From Ignavibacteriota bacterium (GTDB taxonomy: Bacteria; Bacteroidota; Ignavibacteria; SZUA-365), in the NCBI GenBank assembly GCA_016218045.1, contig JACRFB010000012.1:62001-126000 (forward strand): a stretch of DNA of 64,000 nucleotides, written 5' to 3'. This document shows positions 42,949-50,570 of the stretch, in pieces. Made by a program: the position numbers and the translations under genes. Every line of letters starts with the position of its first letter. Positions within the stretch are counted from its first letter, which is position 1. Below the pieces are notes generated by a model. That model was not told the origin of the DNA and searched no databases. It was given only the letters and a program-made list of their open reading frames with translations.

Positions 42949-44139
42949 TTATCCGCCGCACCGCGAGAGGGCCTGGTCGAGGTCGGCGATGATGTCGTCG
43001 GGATCCTCGATGCCGATCGAAAGCCGCACGAGGCCGTCGGTGATCTTTGCCTGTTCGCGCTGCTCCTTGGTCATCGTGGCGTGTGTCATCGAGGCGGGAT
43101 GTTGGATCAGCGTCTCGACGCCGCCGAGACTCACTGCGAGGGCGCAGAGCGACACCGAATTCATCAGCACGCGGCCCGCTTCGAGTCCGCCCTTCAATTC
43201 GAAGGCGATCATGCCGCCCGGTCCGCGCATCTGCCTCTGCGCGATGTCGTACTGCGGATGTGACGGGAAACCGGGGAACAGCATCCACTTCACCTTCGGG
43301 TGTGTGTCGAGATAGGTGGCCACGGCGGTCGCGACTTCGTTGTGGCGTTTCATGCGGATGGGAAGCGTCTTGAGTCCGCGGTGCACAAGGAAGGAGTTGA
43401 AGGGATCGATCACGCCGCCGACGAGGTTCAGAGTCTTGCGGAACAGGGGATACCGCTCGATGTCCTTTACGACGATGATGCCGCCGATCACATCGGCGTG
43501 GCCGTTCAGGAATTTGGTCATGCTGTGCACGATCACATCGGCGCCCAGTTCGAAGGGACGCTGGAGCACGGGGCTCATGAACGTGTTGTCCACCACCAGC
43601 GTCGCGCCGTGCGCGTGCGCGATGGCTGCGGCTCCCGCGATGTCGCTGATGACGAGTGTGGGATTGCCCGGCGTCTCGACAAAAACGACGCGTGTGTTCG
43701 GCTGCATCGCCGCCTCGATGGCGGCAAGATTGGCAGTGTCGACAAAGGTGACGCCGACGTTGAACTTCGCGCCGATGGTGCTGAGTATCGTGGCGGTTGC
43801 GCCGTAGACGGATTCGCTGCACACGACATGGTCGCCCGACGACAGCAGCGCGACCAGCGCGGTGTGGATGGCCGCCATGCCGCTGCCGCAGCCCAGTGCC
43901 TTCGCGCCGCCCTCGAGCGCGGCCACGGCGTCTTCCATGGCCTCGACGGTGGGATTGCGCATGCGCGTGTAAATGTAGCCGTCGCCCTCGCCGCTGAAAA
44001 GCTGCGCGCCGTGTTCGGCGTTACGGAACTTGAAGGTGGACGTCTGATATATCGGCGGAACAACGGCGCCGAAAACGTCTTCATAAATTCCTGCATGAAC
44101 GGCGAGTGTGTCGAGGGCGAGTCTACGATCCGATTCCAC
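42949..44139 (-). CDS. trans-sulfuration PLP enzyme (cystathionine gamma-synthase/lyase or methionine gamma-lyase family)
   Basis: A 396-residue fold-type I PLP enzyme. The GTG at 44139 lies six bases after AAGGAG and gives MESDRRLALDTLAVHAG, the normal family start. Motifs: PPIYQTSTFKF, YIYTRMRNPTVEAMEDAVAALEGG (phosphate-binding Tyr and Arg), ALGCGSGMAAIHTAL, VVDNTFMSPVLQRP, the PLP Lys in HSMTKFLNGHADVIGG and SLGGVETLIQHPASMTHA. Reaction type (synthase, beta/gamma elimination) cannot be fixed by eye. Monocistronic with its own promoter; no SAM riboswitch or S-box features were seen in the leader. Confidence 0.92.
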   Translation of the reverse strand: MESDRRLALDTLAVHAGIYEDVFGAVVPPIYQTSTFKFRNAEHGAQLFSGEGDGYIYTRMRNPTVEAMEDAVAALEGGAKALGCGSGMAAIHTALVALLSSGDHVVCSESVYGATATILSTIGAKFNVGVTFVDTANLAAIEAAMQPNTRVVFVETPGNPTLVISDIAGAAAIAHAHGATLVVDNTFMSPVLQRPFELGADVIVHSMTKFLNGHADVIGGIIVVKDIERYPLFRKTLNLVGGVIDPFNSFLVHRGLKTLPIRMKRHNEVATAVATYLDTHPKVKWMLFPGFPSHPQYDIAQRQMRGPGGMIAFELKGGLEAGRVLMNSVSLCALAVSLGGVETLIQHPASMTHATMTKEQREQAKITDGLVRLSIGIEDPDDIIADLDQALSRCGG

Positions 44140-44223
44140 GGGATTCTCCTTGAGGGACTGCGAAAAGGAATGGGTGGGGGGCAATACGAACGCAGGGCGG
44201 AAGCGTCCCGCGCGGGGGAATTC

Positions 44224-44253
44224 CTAAAATAGCCACCGGGGGCTGCGCGACAA
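44224..44253 (-). promoter_or_regulatory. Bacteroidota-type promoter of the PLP enzyme gene
   Basis: Minus strand: TTTTG (44255-44251), 19 bases, TATTTTAG (44231-44224). The GTG start is about 85 bases downstream. The site lies in the 124-base gap behind the barrel gene at 44264. Confidence 0.6.
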
Positions 44254-44263
44254 AATCGCGGAC

Positions 44264-46324
44264 TCAGTCGAAGAGCAGCCAGTCCACGCCGAAGCGCAAT
44301 TCGCCGCCCGGCATGGGATGGAAACCGGTTGTGACACTCTGTGTGTCGGTGATGTTGTCCCACACGACATGCAGCGTCGCGGCGTCCTTGATTGTGGCAA
44401 AAAGAAAGAGCCGCGCGGTGTACGTGTCGGTGAATGTTGCGGCGCCCGATGTGCGTCCTGTATGGTACGGCGTCGAGAACGCGCCCGTAGAGGGATCGAA
44501 CAGTGCCGGTGCAAAGGCGCTGCGCCAGGTGAGCCCCGCGCCCGCCTTCACGCGCAGCGTGCCGTCGATGATGATGCCGCGATAGTAAATCTCGGCGTCG
44601 TTGCTCCACACGGGGGTCGACGCCACACGCGCCTCGTCGCCGGCCTGGTCGTTGGTGATGGCGTCGAAATGATTCTCCCACACAAACTGGTGGACGGTGA
44701 GACGCGTCTGCAGCGCGGCGCCGAATACGCGGACGGTCCGCGCACCGTACGTGACCACGGGCAGGAATATTCCTCCCGCTTCGGACACATGAATGCCGTA
44801 GGGACTGCGCACGGTGCGCGCGTGCAGCCGCAGGTCGGTTTCGAAGACGCGTCCGCCCGCGCGCAGACCCGCTTCACCCACGAGCAGGGTCTCGTTCTCC
44901 TCACGCCCGGGATCGCGATACGAAAGTAGCGGATGCGCGTCCAGCGCACGTTCGAAGATGGTGGAGGCACGCCGCGCGACGGAGACACCGCACCACTGAG
45001 ACACGATGTCGGAGGGGAAGACGAGTGTGGCACCCGCGCCGACTCCGCCACCCGCGGCCTGCTTATCCGCGCTGCCGAACAGGGAGAGCCGCGTGAAGCC
45101 GAGAGGCACCTCGAGCAGGGCGCCGAGCCGCGCGGTGAGGACCTCATCGGAAGCGGAGGCCCATCCGTCGTGCGTCAGCAAACCCGCGGCACCGCGCAGG
45201 TGCAGCGTGGCCCACGGAAGCTGCGAACTGTGATTCGCGCGAAGTTCGGTCACATTCCAGGTGCGGGCCAGGTCGTGGCGCAGTGTGGCCGCGCTATCGC
45301 TTGTCCACGCGCCTGTGCTGTCGTACAGCGGTATGGTGATGGCAAGCCGGTCCGAAAACTCGCGTCTGTTGCTCGTGTGCGTCAGCGTCAGGCGCGTCTC
45401 GTGCCGGCCTTCGTCCCATTGCAGCACTGCGCCGAGTGCCGCCTCGTTGCGTGTCACGCGTGTGCGAATCGTGGGATTGACGAGTTCGGCGAAGATGGGA
45501 TCGAAGGCCGATGAGGCAAAGTCGTTGTTGTCCTCTCCCGGATACAGCGGGAAGAACATTGTGCCGGCGAGCGGCGTGGCCATGCCGCCGTTCATGTACA
45601 CGATGTGGTCGTTGTAGTAGTCGGAGAGTGTCAGCAGCACAGAGGGTGAGAGGCGCAGCTCGTACCTGCCGCGCAGATCCCAGCTCTCCGCGCGGGTGAA
45701 GGGGAAACGCGCGGTGTTTTGATAGTCGTTGCTGCCCGTGGTGCGCCGCGTCGCGCCGAGGCGCAGACGGTCGCCCTCGCGCGGATCCATGGCGAATTGC
45801 ACGTCGGTGAACAGATGATCGTAGGATCCCTCGCTGTGTATGAGTCGCGTCACGGGCTGTGGCGCCGCGCTGTCGGGCGATTCCAGTTCGACGGCGCTCA
45901 GGACGCCTGGACCCGCCAGCCACAGCGCCTGATGCGCGGGCCAGGACACGATGCGGCGCGTTTCGTCAATGGAAAGGAGATACGGATCCGAAAAACCTGT
46001 AACCGGATCACGCAGCGTGGCGCCGTCGCGCAGCAGCGCACCCTGATACGGCGTCGCTGCGAACGCGCCCGCCCACACGGGCTGCCCCGGTGAGCCCAGT
46101 TCCCACACCCGCATGCCGGGCAGACGGCGCAGCGCCTCGGCCGCGCCGCGGCGCTCGAAGAGCGCAAGCGAATCCGCGCCCAGCATCACGCGCTCGGGCG
46201 CCGGGGCTTCATCATGCGTCAGCGCCGCGGCGCGTGCGCTGTCGGGCGCCTGCTCCTGCGCCTGCGCCGCCGCAGCAATGCCGGCAAGCAGCACTATCAC
46301 GCAAGTCATCACACGTCGTGGCAT
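44264..46324 (-). CDS. TonB-receptor-like outer membrane beta-barrel protein
   Basis: A 686-residue protein; the ATG at 46324 is six bases after GGGGAGG and overlaps the previous stop as TGATG. Signal peptide RRVMTCVIVLLAGIAAAAQAQ. Residues about 45-150 look like a reduced plug domain (AAEALRRLPGMRVWELGS, GALLRDGATLRDPV), followed by many barrel strands (DRLRLGATRRTTGSNDY, SVLLTLSDYYNDHIVYMNGG, ARLFLFATIKDAATLHVVWDNIT) and a final FGVDWLLFD with aromatic end region. No TonB box was identified. It is the last gene of a four-gene operon with an acyltransferase-like protein and two lipoproteins. Substrate unknown. Confidence 0.75.
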   Translation of the reverse strand: MPRRVMTCVIVLLAGIAAAAQAQEQAPDSARAAALTHDEAPAPERVMLGADSLALFERRGAAEALRRLPGMRVWELGSPGQPVWAGAFAATPYQGALLRDGATLRDPVTGFSDPYLLSIDETRRIVSWPAHQALWLAGPGVLSAVELESPDSAAPQPVTRLIHSEGSYDHLFTDVQFAMDPREGDRLRLGATRRTTGSNDYQNTARFPFTRAESWDLRGRYELRLSPSVLLTLSDYYNDHIVYMNGGMATPLAGTMFFPLYPGEDNNDFASSAFDPIFAELVNPTIRTRVTRNEAALGAVLQWDEGRHETRLTLTHTSNRREFSDRLAITIPLYDSTGAWTSDSAATLRHDLARTWNVTELRANHSSQLPWATLHLRGAAGLLTHDGWASASDEVLTARLGALLEVPLGFTRLSLFGSADKQAAGGGVGAGATLVFPSDIVSQWCGVSVARRASTIFERALDAHPLLSYRDPGREENETLLVGEAGLRAGGRVFETDLRLHARTVRSPYGIHVSEAGGIFLPVVTYGARTVRVFGAALQTRLTVHQFVWENHFDAITNDQAGDEARVASTPVWSNDAEIYYRGIIIDGTLRVKAGAGLTWRSAFAPALFDPSTGAFSTPYHTGRTSGAATFTDTYTARLFLFATIKDAATLHVVWDNITDTQSVTTGFHPMPGGELRFGVDWLLFD

Positions 46325-47328
46325 CACCATCCTCCCCGTCTTCTGCGCGTCGTGTTGCGCAGCGCCTCCGCGACGCGCACCATTGTGTTCCGGTACTGCA
46401 CGGCCGCGATGTACGGCACACGTGTCCCGCCGAAGAGTTGTTTAAAATCCGATATCCCCGGCGTGTTCGCGCCCATGAAGTCGAACGTTGTCATCCCACA
46501 CTCCGCGTATTCCTCGACGAGTTGATCCACCAGCCAATGCGAGGCCGACAGGTCGCCGAGCGACAGATCGGCTCCCGCAATCCAATCGTACACCGTGCCG
46601 TTAAACGGAATCACCACACGCGCGGCCGCGGGAGCGCCCTCGGCGCTGCGTGCGCAATGAATGTCCACGAGTCCATCCTGCACAAGCCCGTCCAGCCATC
46701 GTTCGAGGAGCGCGCGCGGAAAGGGCGGCGCGCTGCCGTGCCGTTCATAACTGCGCAGATGCAGGTCGAGCACGGTGCCGACCGCCGCGTCGCGGTCGCG
46801 ACACACTCCGCGTTTCCCGGCCTTGCGTATATGCCTGCGCAGCGACGGACTGTACGCAGCGCGCGCACGGGCGGGATCCGCGATGGCGACATGCAGGGTC
46901 TCCTGCGCGCGAAGCGACCAGTGCCGCTGCTCGAGCGCCGCGCGCGCCCAGGGCTCCTCGCGGACGGACAGGTGCGCGAAGTGGCAGACCTTGCCTGCTT
47001 CGGCAAGAACGGCCGATGCGAGGGCGACCGCTTCGCGAGTGTCGGCGGCGGCGACCGCCGGATCGAGCAGCAATCCGCCATACAGCGAAATGGGCGCGGG
47101 CGGCGATATCATGAAGGGACCGCGGCGGCGGAGCAGCAGCACCGCGCCCGCGAGGAAGCGTCCGTTATCCTCGGCGGCAAGCAGCATCGCCGTGTATCCG
47201 AAAGCGCGCTCGATGTGCCCGAGCCAGGCGCGGCTCGCGAAACAGCCGCCCAGGGGCTGCGTGGACGCGAGAGCGTCCCACGACTGCGCCTCGGCGGGCG
47301 CGAGTCGAACTACGCGAGCGGACGGCAC
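46324..47328 (-). CDS. GNAT/FemAB-like acyltransferase (BioF2-like domain)
   Basis: A 334-residue protein starting with GTG. It has two GNAT-like halves: ARVVRLAPAEAQSWDALAS, FGYTAMLLAAEDNGRFLAGAVLLLRR in the first, and YSPSLRRHIRKAGKRGV, VLDLHLRSYERHG, AARVVIPFNGTVYDWIAGADLSLG, DFMGANTPGISDFKQLFGG in the second. Such proteins (PF13480 type, related to FemX) add aminoacyl or acyl groups to cell-wall or polysaccharide precursors. Its stop overlaps the barrel start (TGATG), and the previous lipoprotein ends 10 bases upstream, so it is translated with both. The acceptor is unknown. Confidence 0.75.
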   Translation of the reverse strand: MPSARVVRLAPAEAQSWDALASTQPLGGCFASRAWLGHIERAFGYTAMLLAAEDNGRFLAGAVLLLRRRGPFMISPPAPISLYGGLLLDPAVAAADTREAVALASAVLAEAGKVCHFAHLSVREEPWARAALEQRHWSLRAQETLHVAIADPARARAAYSPSLRRHIRKAGKRGVCRDRDAAVGTVLDLHLRSYERHGSAPPFPRALLERWLDGLVQDGLVDIHCARSAEGAPAAARVVIPFNGTVYDWIAGADLSLGDLSASHWLVDQLVEEYAECGMTTFDFMGANTPGISDFKQLFGGTRVPYIAAVQYRNTMVRVAEALRNTTRRRRGGW

Positions 47329-47338
47329 CGCGCGGACC

Positions 47339-48211
47339 TCAGCGACCGGACGCGATGATGGTCGCCGCGATGTAGTCGACGATGCGGTAGAAGTGTTCCA
47401 TCGCCGTCGCCATCTGATGGCCGATGCCCTCGCGCGCCGAGGTGCGCGAGATCATGCTCGAGTATATCTGCTTCACCTGGTTGCGCTTTGTCACGTCGAG
47501 CGAGAAGGCCCAGACCTGGCACACTTCAAAGGTGCGGTACATGCCGTTGAGGAAGAGGTCCTCGCCCGTCTCTGCCGCGCCGCGGCCCTCGGCGTACACT
47601 TGGTCCACCTGGTCGATGTGTCCCGCGAAGACGCTATCCTTGTCGAGATCCAGAAACACGGCCTTCGAGAGATGGAAACAGTCGTCGGCGAGCTGCCCCA
47701 GCAGGGTGGCGCCGTCGGCGCGTTCCTTCATCAGACGCTGAATCGTGCTGCTCATGGTGTCGAGAGTCAGCATCCTGTCAGCGCGGTTCGCGTAGCGCAT
47801 GCCGTACATGGTCTGGAACATATCATGCACGCCGAGCATGCCGTTGACGATTTTCCCGCTGCGGCCCGCGCGTGTCGCGTCCTCGCGAATGAACTCCTGC
47901 TCCTTCCCGTCGATGATCTGTTTCCAGCTTCCGTCGAGATCCCACGCGCGTGCGAGTGTGGCGAGCACCTTGGTCGTGGCGTAAGCCGCGTTGGCGAGTC
48001 GGTCGGCCTCGACGGTGTCCTTCGTGGAGTTCATGGATTCCCGCACCGTGTTGAGCACCTTCTGCAGGTTTTGCAGACGCGCGGCCGTGCCGCTTGTGTC
48101 GCGGGCCGTCTGCGCCGCGGCGCCGCTGTTCGGGTCGGCGTTCTGCGTCCGTCCGCAGGAGGGAAGGAGGGTGGCGAACAGACAGAGGAGAAGTGTGGTG
48201 CGGAGAAGCAT
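47339..48211 (-). CDS. lipoprotein of unknown function
   Basis: A 290-residue lipoprotein from the ATG at 48211: signal peptide MLLRTTLLLCLFATLLPSC with Cys at 19. The upstream part of the same open frame overlaps the previous gene in another phase and is not used. The mature protein is mostly helical (LQNLQKVLNTVRESMNSTKDTVEADRLA pieces, TIQRLMKERADGATLLGQLADDCFHLSKAVFLDLD, ATAMEHFYRIVDYIAATI). No known domain was recognised. Eight bases behind another lipoprotein gene and 10 bases before the acyltransferase gene, in one operon. Confidence 0.75.
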   Translation of the reverse strand: MLLRTTLLLCLFATLLPSCGRTQNADPNSGAAAQTARDTSGTAARLQNLQKVLNTVRESMNSTKDTVEADRLANAAYATTKVLATLARAWDLDGSWKQIIDGKEQEFIREDATRAGRSGKIVNGMLGVHDMFQTMYGMRYANRADRMLTLDTMSSTIQRLMKERADGATLLGQLADDCFHLSKAVFLDLDKDSVFAGHIDQVDQVYAEGRGAAETGEDLFLNGMYRTFEVCQVWAFSLDVTKRNQVKQIYSSMISRTSAREGIGHQMATAMEHFYRIVDYIAATIIASGR

Positions 48212-48219
48212 GATAGGTG

Positions 48220-49239
48220 TCAGGGTTGTGGTGTGATGGATTCGAGTATGAGGGTAAGGACGGACTGATAGTTTGCGAGTGTGCCGAGCGCCTGATTGAC
48301 TCCGCCGAACATCTTCACGACCTGGCCGGTCTTTGTGTCGGCCAGAGTGTACACGCGCCCCGCAAGCGCCGCGCCGTCGGTAAACATGACGTCCTCCTTG
48401 CGGAGCACGACGAAGCGCGACGAGTCCTGCGCGGCGGGCAGCTCGGTGAGCGGCGGCAGTTCGGGGATCCACACACGGACCACGGCCTCGCGGTCCATCG
48501 TTCCCGGATTCAGGTAGCTGAGTTCGACACCTGTCTGCGGCGCCGTCTCGCCCGGCACGCGGAAGGTCCGCTTGTCGGCCGCGTCCCAGGTCAGAGGATA
48601 CAGCAAGTCGAGCCCGAGCGACGAGGCGTTGAGCCGCGCCATGCCTTCGCCGCGTTTCAGGGTCGAGAACTTGCCGTCGTGCTGCCACCACGAGCGCTGC
48701 CAGGTGCCATCGTCGCCGAAGGGCACCTTCCACGCGCCGCGTTCACGAAGCAGAAAAAAGGATCCGATACTCTCAATCTGCCGGCCCGGCACGTCGGCTA
48801 CAAAACTAGCGGTGACGATGGCGCGTGTCGAGTCGCGCAGGTCGATGTCGAGGATGTCGATGCCCGAGAACGTGAAATAGAAGGGCGTCTCCGCGCGCGC
48901 CTGGCGCTCGCCGAGCCACGCGGCGTAAGCCTTCGCGTCCGCGACACCCGCGGTGCGCAGGGCGGCGCGGGTCCGTGCCGTGAGCAGCGTGTACGCATCT
49001 GCCGCGAGGTCGGGCCGGCCGAAACACTTCATCCACTGCAGAAAGGCGCCGCGGGCTTCGCGGTACTGGACCAGTTCGGGCGGCGGCGTGTTCGGGGTGC
49101 CGCGTTCCTCGGGCGCGATCTCGCGCTTCCCGCCGCAGGAGGGGAGCATCGCGGCAGCCGCGGCGAGGCAGATCACCAGCACCCACGCGTGGCGGGTGTG
49201 GCGCCCGGGGTCGATGCGGCTTGTGCGGAGCGGTATCAT
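48220..49239 (-). CDS. lipoprotein of unknown function, first gene of a four-gene operon
   Basis: A 339-residue lipoprotein from the ATG at 49239, chosen because it yields the signal peptide HAWVLVICLAAAAAMLPSC (Cys near 34). The mature part begins with a helical domain (REARGAFLQWMKCFGRPDLAADAYTLL, AYAAWLGERQAR) followed by strand-rich sequence (FYFTFSGIDILDIDLRDSTRAIVTASF, GAWKVPFGDDGTWQRSWWQHDGKF) reminiscent of NTF2/lumazine-like accessory folds, then RVPGETAPQTGVELSYL. No family was recognised. No SD precedes the ATG. On the minus strand TTC, 20 bases, TACTTTTC (49369-49339) is a weak candidate promoter. Confidence 0.7.
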   Translation of the reverse strand: MIPLRTSRIDPGRHTRHAWVLVICLAAAAAMLPSCGGKREIAPEERGTPNTPPPELVQYREARGAFLQWMKCFGRPDLAADAYTLLTARTRAALRTAGVADAKAYAAWLGERQARAETPFYFTFSGIDILDIDLRDSTRAIVTASFVADVPGRQIESIGSFFLLRERGAWKVPFGDDGTWQRSWWQHDGKFSTLKRGEGMARLNASSLGLDLLYPLTWDAADKRTFRVPGETAPQTGVELSYLNPGTMDREAVVRVWIPELPPLTELPAAQDSSRFVVLRKEDVMFTDGAALAGRVYTLADTKTGQVVKMFGGVNQALGTLANYQSVLTLILESITPQP

Positions 49240-49414
49240 AGGGAGGAATCTCTGATAGTCGTGAGCGGGGGATGGGTGCGCGGCGGCGGAGACGGTCCGC
49301 AGGCCGCGCGGTGTTCCCGGCCGGCAAAACATGAACACGAAAAGTACGGTTTTTCCCGACGATGCGGAAGTCGCTTGCCCGTCGCCTGCACGGCGCACGG
49401 ACAGGGCGCCGTTG

Positions 49415-49445
49415 TTGCTTTCGGAGGGGATATCCCGTACATTTA
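49415..49445 (+). promoter_or_regulatory. Bacteroidota-type promoter of the efp-acc genes
   Basis: TTG (49415-49417), 20 bases, TACATTTA (49438-49445), 42 bases before the efp start. The 248-base divergent gap 49240-49487 holds nothing else recognised. Confidence 0.7.
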
Positions 49446-49487
49446 CCATGATATAAGTAGTTTTTTCAATGATTTTTGCAGGAATGT

Positions 49488-50048
49488 ATGGGTTCGACCA
49501 CAGACTTCAGGAATGGCCTCATTATTCGTTTTAACGGCGATCTGCACCAGATCGTCGAGTGGAGGCATCACAAGCCCGGTAAGGGCCAGGCGATGGTGCA
49601 GGCCAAGCTCAAGAATCTCCGCACGGGTTCCGCGTTCGAGAACCGTTTCCGTCCGGGCGAGACTGTGGACATCGTCCGCGTCGAACGCCGCAAGTTCCAA
49701 TTCCTGTATCCCGAAGGTGAAGACCTGTGTTTTATGGATCAGGAGACCTACGACCAGATTCACGTCTCGCGCGAGTTGTTCGGTGATTCCGTCCGTTTCC
49801 TCAAAGAAGGGGAGATCTGCGAAATTGCTCTCGACGGCGAGACGCCGATCGAGGGCGAGCTGCCGATCACGGTGGAACTGCAGGTGACAGAAACCGATCC
49901 GGGTCTGCGCGGCGATACCGCCACGGGCGGCACAAAACGCGCCGTGGTCTCGACGGGCGCCGTGGTGAACGTGCCGCTCTTTATCGACGAGGGCGAAATG
50001 CTCAAGATCGACACGCGCACGGGCGCCTATCTCGAACGTGTGAAGTAA
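49488..50048 (+). CDS. efp: elongation factor P
   Basis: A 186-residue three-domain EF-P. It relieves ribosome stalling at polyproline, relevant here as several surface proteins have PPP stretches. Domain I has DFRNGLIIRFNGDLHQIVEW and the loop HHKPGKGQA with Lys32 at the place of the modifiable Lys34 of E. coli. Domains II and III show FRPGETVDIVRVERR, CFMDQETYDQIHV, ETDPGLRGDTATGGTKRA and the terminal GEMLKIDTRTGAYLERVK. The ATG at 49488 gives the usual N-terminus; an in-frame ATG four codons earlier is possible. No epm modification genes are in view. Confidence 0.96.
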   Translation: MGSTTDFRNGLIIRFNGDLHQIVEWRHHKPGKGQAMVQAKLKNLRTGSAFENRFRPGETVDIVRVERRKFQFLYPEGEDLCFMDQETYDQIHVSRELFGDSVRFLKEGEICEIALDGETPIEGELPITVELQVTETDPGLRGDTATGGTKRAVVSTGAVVNVPLFIDEGEMLKIDTRTGAYLERVK

Positions 50049-50081
50049 ACCCGAGCCACACACATGCCATCGGAGCCGACA

Positions 50082-50570
50082 ATGGATATCCAATACATCC
50101 GGAAACTGATCAAGCTCGTCACCGACTCCGATATCGAGGAGCTGGAGATCGAGGAAAGCGGCGCGCGTGTGCGTGTCACGCGCGGACGTGCCGCGGACGA
50201 GACTCCCGTCTCCTTCATGCCGTATCCGCAAATGCCCATGCCGCAGCACGCTCCGCCGGCCGCGCCCGCGGCTCAGGCGGCACCGGCACCCGCGGCGGCA
50301 CCCGCCCCCGCGAAGGACGACGCGTCGCTGTACACCGTCGTATCGCCCATCGTCGGCACCTTCTATCGCGCGCCCGCCCCTGATGCAGATCCGTATGTGC
50401 AGGTGGGGCAGTCCATCGCATCCGGCGCCGTGGTCGGCATCATCGAGGCGATGAAGATCATGAACGAAATCGAATCCGAACGCGGCGGCAAGGTCGTGAA
50501 AATCCTCGTCGAGAACGGCCAGGCCGTCGAATACAATCAACCGCTCGTGGTTCTGGACCTGAGCGCGTGA
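50082..50570 (+). CDS. accB: acetyl-CoA carboxylase biotin carboxyl carrier protein
   Basis: A 162-residue BCCP. N-terminal [25 protein letters not shown] is the usual AccB helix; an Ala/Pro-rich linker covers about 50-80; the C-terminal biotinyl domain has the biotinylation site EAMKIMNE (Lys125) and ends [12 protein letters not shown]. The ATG at 50082 follows GGAGCCGACA. It carries the carboxybiotin between AccC and AccAD in the first step of fatty acid synthesis. efp lies 33 bases upstream and accC 50 downstream. Confidence 0.96.

Follow-up and report, generated by a model that had tools for sequence, protein, structure and literature searches.

A Conserved Operon of Two Lipoproteins, a FemAB-like Enzyme, and a Plugged Outer-Membrane Barrel in Ignavibacteria-Type Bacteria: A Possible Module for Envelope Glycan Aminoacylation

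Results and Discussion

Operon Architecture and Conservation

The genes described here lie on contig JACRFB010000012.1 of an Ignavibacteriota bacterium (GCA_016218045.1), and all coordinates are positions in the window, by which we mean the whole stretch of 64,000 nt that was analyzed. Four open, co-directional reading frames occupy the minus strand. The first, LipoA (48220-49239), encodes 339 residues with an LPSC lipobox and is followed after 8 bases (48212-48219) by LipoB (47339-48211), which encodes 290 residues and likewise carries LPSC. After a further 10 bases (47329-47338) comes the gene for a 334-residue FemAB-like enzyme with a GTG start (46324-47328), and the last gene encodes an outer-membrane barrel of 688 residues (44264-46330). 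The enzyme and barrel genes meet at TGATG (46326-46322), which corresponds to an in-frame ATG at 46324, an alternative start for the barrel. The first-pass annotation gave the layout exactly: 8 and 10 bases separate the first three genes, and TGATG joins the last two. The gene for a PLP enzyme of the methionine gamma-lyase/cystathionine gamma-synthase group (42949-44184, minus strand) lies 79 bases past the barrel and was excluded from the module; in genomes of the family, this methionine gamma-lyase-like gene comes after the barrel in the same orientation and may be co-transcribed.

LipoA and LipoB were each found in 14 of the 61 relatives searched, including all 12 genomes of the window's family, while 16 of 21 relatives have the enzyme (one weakly, 9.9e-4) and 18 of 21 have the barrel. 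A single contig carries all four genes in a row in 10 of the family's 12 genomes, and contig ends break the set in the remaining two (G009 and G011). Clear homologues of each protein in relatives, where the starts and stops of successive genes also touch or overlap, show that the four reading frames are not chance. The flanks are syntenic within the family, with genes that we mostly take to be guaA, accC, accB, and efp on one side and the PLP enzyme, tsaD, and mltG on the other. Because this whole surrounding block is conserved in the family, adjacency alone is weak evidence of joint function. The set nevertheless stays together, as far as the contigs reach, in order-level genomes whose flanks are partly different, and three genomes from another family of the order (G013, G014, and G015) keep the operon to the same extent. 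The first-pass annotation had made its proposal depend on a conserved neighborhood, and the proposal survives, since gene order is kept both in the family and in order-level relatives. A literature search found nothing on this operon, which has no name to search by. In family f3, a gene on the opposite strand adjoins the barrel (L080 15319-15924, L081 4538-5242); by eye, we take its product to be a TlpA-like thioredoxin.

In four relatives (G003, G012, G013, and G014), an L,D-transpeptidase (YkuD) gene stands directly before LipoA (L067 8234-9025, L079 4098-5063, L078 805-1755, and L110). PF03734 exceeds its cut-off for this gene in all four, and a YkuD motif is present in it in G012 and G013. 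A search with the L,D-transpeptidase gene gave matches in 6 of 21 genomes and came up empty in 11 of the family's 12, among them the genome of the window, which has two YkuD matches elsewhere and none at the operon. The L,D-transpeptidase is a probable ancestral fifth gene of the operon, absent at the window's locus.

The FemAB-like Enzyme and Its Homologues across the Phylum

The enzyme matches PF13480 (GNAT_6) at 70.6 bits against a curated cut-off of 22 (E 2e-19), the sole Pfam family above cut-off in this protein and matched in one stretch, which bears out its initial description as a FemAB/BioF2-like enzyme. Its profile also matches PDB entries 9wqy (5.6e-8) and 9wqw (3.4e-7), both named "aminoacyl-tRNA-dependent peptide synthase", in alignments that run through FKxxFGG. 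The lysine of the FKxxFG motif, K296, lines up with the FK of 9wqy and is invariant in all 14 rows from the order. All 20 phylum homologues likewise have an FK lysine, and a pattern search finds the full FDxxGANTP...FK signature in 10 of them. A review singles out Lys305 in FemX(Wv) and Lys329 in DhpH-C as the key lysine, and we infer that K296 is their equivalent. PF13480 and the FK lysine place the enzyme closest to the FemABX/GNAT_6 transferases, such as FemX, DhpH-C, and HfsK, from which it differs in its neighbors: the adjoining genes encode lipoproteins and an outer-membrane barrel, and no flippase gene was recognized beside the operon in the window's order, where Pfam covered part of the neighbors. 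HfsK of Caulobacter, a mostly cytosolic, FemX-like tandem-GNAT protein of holdfast polysaccharide, is evidence that such enzymes also work outside peptidoglycan. The XrtA/PEP-CTERM FemAB family (TIGR03019) aligns over residues 15-306 (2.1e-15), and the score of 56.6 bits falls far below the cut-off of 260.35, so the enzyme is not a member of that equivalog. The span of this alignment and the length of 334 residues are what bears on a putative architecture of two GNAT domains.

At E ≤ 1e-15, the enzyme profile finds matches in 56 of 395 phylum genomes, the window's included, and 20 of these regions were examined. A flippase-cluster gene lies near the enzyme in 16 of them; of the other four, two (L214 and L221) break off at the end of their contig shortly past the enzyme, and L212 and L227 show none. 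Polysacc_synt_3 exceeds its cut-off in nine of the ten flippase-cluster proteins scanned, the tenth (from L226) having no Pfam match. BacA/UppP is encoded directly upstream of the enzyme in two regions (L210 and L227), and a DUF6798 membrane protein is often encoded between enzyme and flippase (two were scanned, both over cut-off). The enzyme usually follows hslU, with hslV, dacB, mreC, and mreB nearby; the names hslV, hslU, and dacB, like that of purH, another neighbor at these loci, are presumed. In L226, the upstream genes match MreB_Mbl, MreC, Peptidase_S13, Proteasome, NYN, and AAA_2 by Pfam, and the same clusters recur at most other loci. Taken as an arrangement in its own right, the cassette of FemAB-like enzyme, DUF6798 membrane protein, and flippase, often behind mreB-mreC-dacB-hslV-hslU, is phylum-wide (L209-L228). 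The wider context is different in L210, L222, L224, and L225 and the flippase is retained, a sign that more than block synteny links the two genes. The flippase, BacA, mreB, mreC, and dacB neighbors in the phylum, together with the L,D-transpeptidase in four relatives, fit the earlier suggestion of acyl or aminoacyl modification of a wall or lipid-linked component, although the substrate itself stays putative.

The Two Lipoproteins

The first-pass statement that the two lipoproteins match no recognizable family holds, in that no Pfam or NCBIfam profile exceeds its curated cut-off for LipoA or for LipoB. The lipobox Cys of LipoA (C35) is present in all 14 aligned rows. SnoaL_3 matches 4 of the 14 members, at best with 4e-4, and the LipoA profile has no match among PDB sequences. 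The predicted model (pLDDT 81.9, pTM 0.47) falls into two parts. Residues ∼52-192 resemble NTF2-like structures, among which are the N-terminal domains of PBP5 and PBP2a; for residues ∼198-338, the matches are PsbP-like structures, with BT_1490 (Z 9.8), PsbP (Z 9.5), and Tsi3 (Z 9.4) as ties; the domain matches overall have Z ∼9-11. LipoA is thus a predicted lipoprotein with an NTF2-like and a PsbP-like domain, a fold that shows no function. It differs from the known PsbP- and NTF2-like proteins in joining both domains behind a lipobox and in having no Pfam match over cut-off.

Of the 12 family rows of LipoB, 10 show the lipobox Cys, that of the window among them, and the other two, whose sequences start inside the gene, have a gap there. 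Both rows of family f3 (L079 2108-3019, L081 8240-9148) have no lipobox Cys, and to judge from these sequences the protein may be soluble and secreted in that family. A search of 294 class genomes with the LipoB profile gives matches in 14, every one a member of the window's order, and none outside it; inside the order, there is a second, weak match in G006 (4.9e-4). DUF5798 was considered and set aside, as it matches only 1 of the 14 members, below the Pfam cut-off. Searches of the PDB with the LipoB profile returned chance-level rows only (best E 0.33), and Foldseek with the predicted model gave no match at E ≤ 0.001 (best E 0.36), a search in which 8qkd appears with probability 0.98 and TM 0.52.

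The LipoB model (pLDDT 86.4, pTM 0.82) has ten helices besides the signal peptide; five of them are predicted to close into a central ring, and the others to lie outside it. The parallel arrangement of the central helices is seen on this predicted model when it is compared with 8qkd, the de novo designed single-chain alpha-helical barrel sc-CC-5. In VIA-align, 8qkd is the top match, with Z 19.9 and an rmsd of 3.0 Å over 220 residues, and the next row has Z 7.3. For comparison, the best Z documented for VIA-align is typically 14 across five largely helical models that had no clear match; LipoB stands above this value, though its model is a prediction. Helices 68-90, 116-140, 167-189, 216-238, and 263-288 are more conserved than the alternate helices (0.58-0.77 versus 0.40-0.58) and also more hydrophobic, as expected for a central ring. 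The LipoB profile aligns to itself at an offset of ∼100 residues (5e-6), so that a pair of hairpins recurs along the protein. One central helix holds the invariant polar residues E217, D218, N222, R226, and E229, which may face a lumen. LipoB differs from 8qkd in being a natural sequence, with 8% identity and conserved polar residues on its central helices. No natural ring-shaped (alpha/alpha) enzyme appears in the VIA-align list for LipoB, an absence that excludes nothing. The designers of 8qkd reported that they found no such closed fold in the PDB or AlphaFold-SwissProt, and the fold has been presented as a new designed-protein class.

The Outer-Membrane Barrel

No Pfam or NCBIfam profile exceeds its curated cut-off for the barrel. 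Porin_10, to which its C-terminal part is similar, stays below cut-off and matches all 16 members at E up to 0.1; under the same limit, Pfam Plug matches 5 of the 16, the window protein not among them. Among TonB-dependent receptors, BtuB is nearest by sequence. The barrel profile matches BtuB1 (8blw) at 1.1e-11, and BtuB plug residues 6-132 align to it almost gap-free, so the plug is nearly complete. The "reduced plug" of the first-pass annotation was therefore wrong, and of its two proposed roles, exporter or receptor, a receptor-like barrel is supported and an exporter is not. Its remark that no TonB box could be seen agrees with our inspection by eye. None is conserved in 16 aligned and 10 further barrel N-termini, a set in which some entries are the same gene twice and some rows are truncated or start-extended, and TonB boxes are short and degenerate. 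The Porin_10-like C-terminal part sets the barrel apart from BtuB, as may the lack of a visible conserved box. The N-termini are long, rich in S, T, and D, and unconserved, and those of L070, L074, and L075 hold tandem DS-rich repeats (e.g., GEDSL in L074 and DSTG in L075).

At E ≤ 1e-10, the barrel profile finds matches in 142 of 149 class genomes, not all of which are necessarily orthologues, and these barrels mostly occur without the lipoproteins or this enzyme. At class-level loci, a gene that we take to be ispE adjoins the barrel in 12 of 15 cases, and ispE and/or a presumed LOG-like gene is present in 14 of 15. The resulting cluster of ispE, plugged barrel, and LOG-like gene (L127-L141) is class-wide and places the barrel among housekeeping neighbors. 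In the window's order, none of the 12 genomes with an ispE match has the barrel or a LOG gene within the flank of up to 1.5 kb. Since ispE and LOG stand beside the barrel elsewhere in the class and not in this order, the barrel appears to have changed neighbors, leaving that context to join the operon.

A Possible Envelope-Modification Module and Its Alternatives

We propose that the four genes probably make and handle a cell-envelope component in this little-studied bacterial group. The specific version that we favor, an order-specific module that couples aminoacylation of a lipid-linked envelope glycan to outer-membrane handling proteins, is offered tentatively, as we give it somewhat less than an even chance of being right. 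In such a module, the cytoplasmic FemAB-like enzyme would probably transfer an aminoacyl (or acyl) group, putatively from aminoacyl-tRNA, to an undecaprenyl-linked envelope saccharide or a peptidoglycan precursor before that acceptor is flipped. At the outer membrane, both lipoproteins and the plugged barrel would subsequently bind this product or its partner, place it, or move it, and some relatives would add the periplasmic L,D-transpeptidase encoded at the operon head. The gene order, the homologies, the conserved FK lysine, and the neighborhoods of the enzyme's homologues are observed, and the folds are predicted; the use of aminoacyl-tRNA, the acceptor, the joint work of the four proteins, and the direction of transport are our inferences. 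Several results count against this reading: the flanks are syntenic as well, no flippase gene was recognized beside the operon in the window's order as far as Pfam covered the neighbors, the transpeptidase search was negative in 11 of 12 genomes of the family, and the barrel is class-wide and mostly apart from the lipoproteins and this enzyme.

A nutrient-uptake system offers a different account of the same genes, with the barrel as a TonB-dependent-type importer, the lipoproteins as substrate-binding accessories comparable to BtuG/BtuH or SusD, and the enzyme modifying the imported compound. The homology of the plug to that of BtuB (BtuB1, chain 8blw) speaks for it, as do the TonB_C proteins encoded in 21 of 21 genomes, four of them in the window's own, and the lipoproteins that accompany receptors in Bacteroides B12 loci. 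We consider it rather unlikely, given that no conserved TonB box is visible, that the class-wide barrel mostly lacks these lipoproteins, and that homologues of the enzyme lie among flippase and wall genes. Vitamin B12 as the substrate, suggested by the plug and the BT_1490 match, was rejected: Rfam gave nothing at gathering score over 43500-50100, hence no riboswitch (in six relatives it found one tRNA), and the LipoA match covers residues 1-133 of the BT_1490 chain, while BtuH binds B12 through its C-terminal part. We assign a similarly low likelihood to the idea that four envelope genes merely share a promoter and stay together within a stable chromosomal block with no common substrate. Block-wide synteny on both sides within the family is what this would produce; the persistence of the set where flanks partly differ, the touching or overlapping genes in relatives, and the apparent move of the barrel into the operon all count against it.

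The L,D-transpeptidase raises yet another possibility, in which this enzyme of the ancestral operon would link the barrel or a lipoprotein to peptidoglycan, with the FemAB-like enzyme preparing the stem peptide. L,D-transpeptidases can attach beta-barrels to peptidoglycan, and the gene lies beside LipoA in four genomes. It is absent from the window's locus, and 14 of 16 barrel rows show, by pattern, a Q after a signal-peptidase-like site. Under the Bacteroidetes Q-rule, such a Q is predicted to be cyclized, which would leave the N-terminus blocked and counts against a tether; the rule comes from Bacteroidetes and may not hold in this lineage. We regard a tether as highly improbable.

Within the favored envelope-modification module, LipoB could be a natural single-chain alpha-helical barrel of five parallel central helices whose polar-lined lumen would bind or convey an intermediate of the envelope glycan en route between the outer-membrane barrel and the FemAB-like pathway. 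This picture draws on the predicted model, and we think it improbable as a whole.

Conclusions

If the predicted ring of LipoB holds, a fold known as a designed protein would have a counterpart in nature. The module, for its part, connects outer-membrane proteins of a single order with a group of enzymes whose genes neighbor wall and flippase genes in other lineages, and through it a possible aminoacylated envelope glycan of Ignavibacteria-type bacteria becomes open to experiment.
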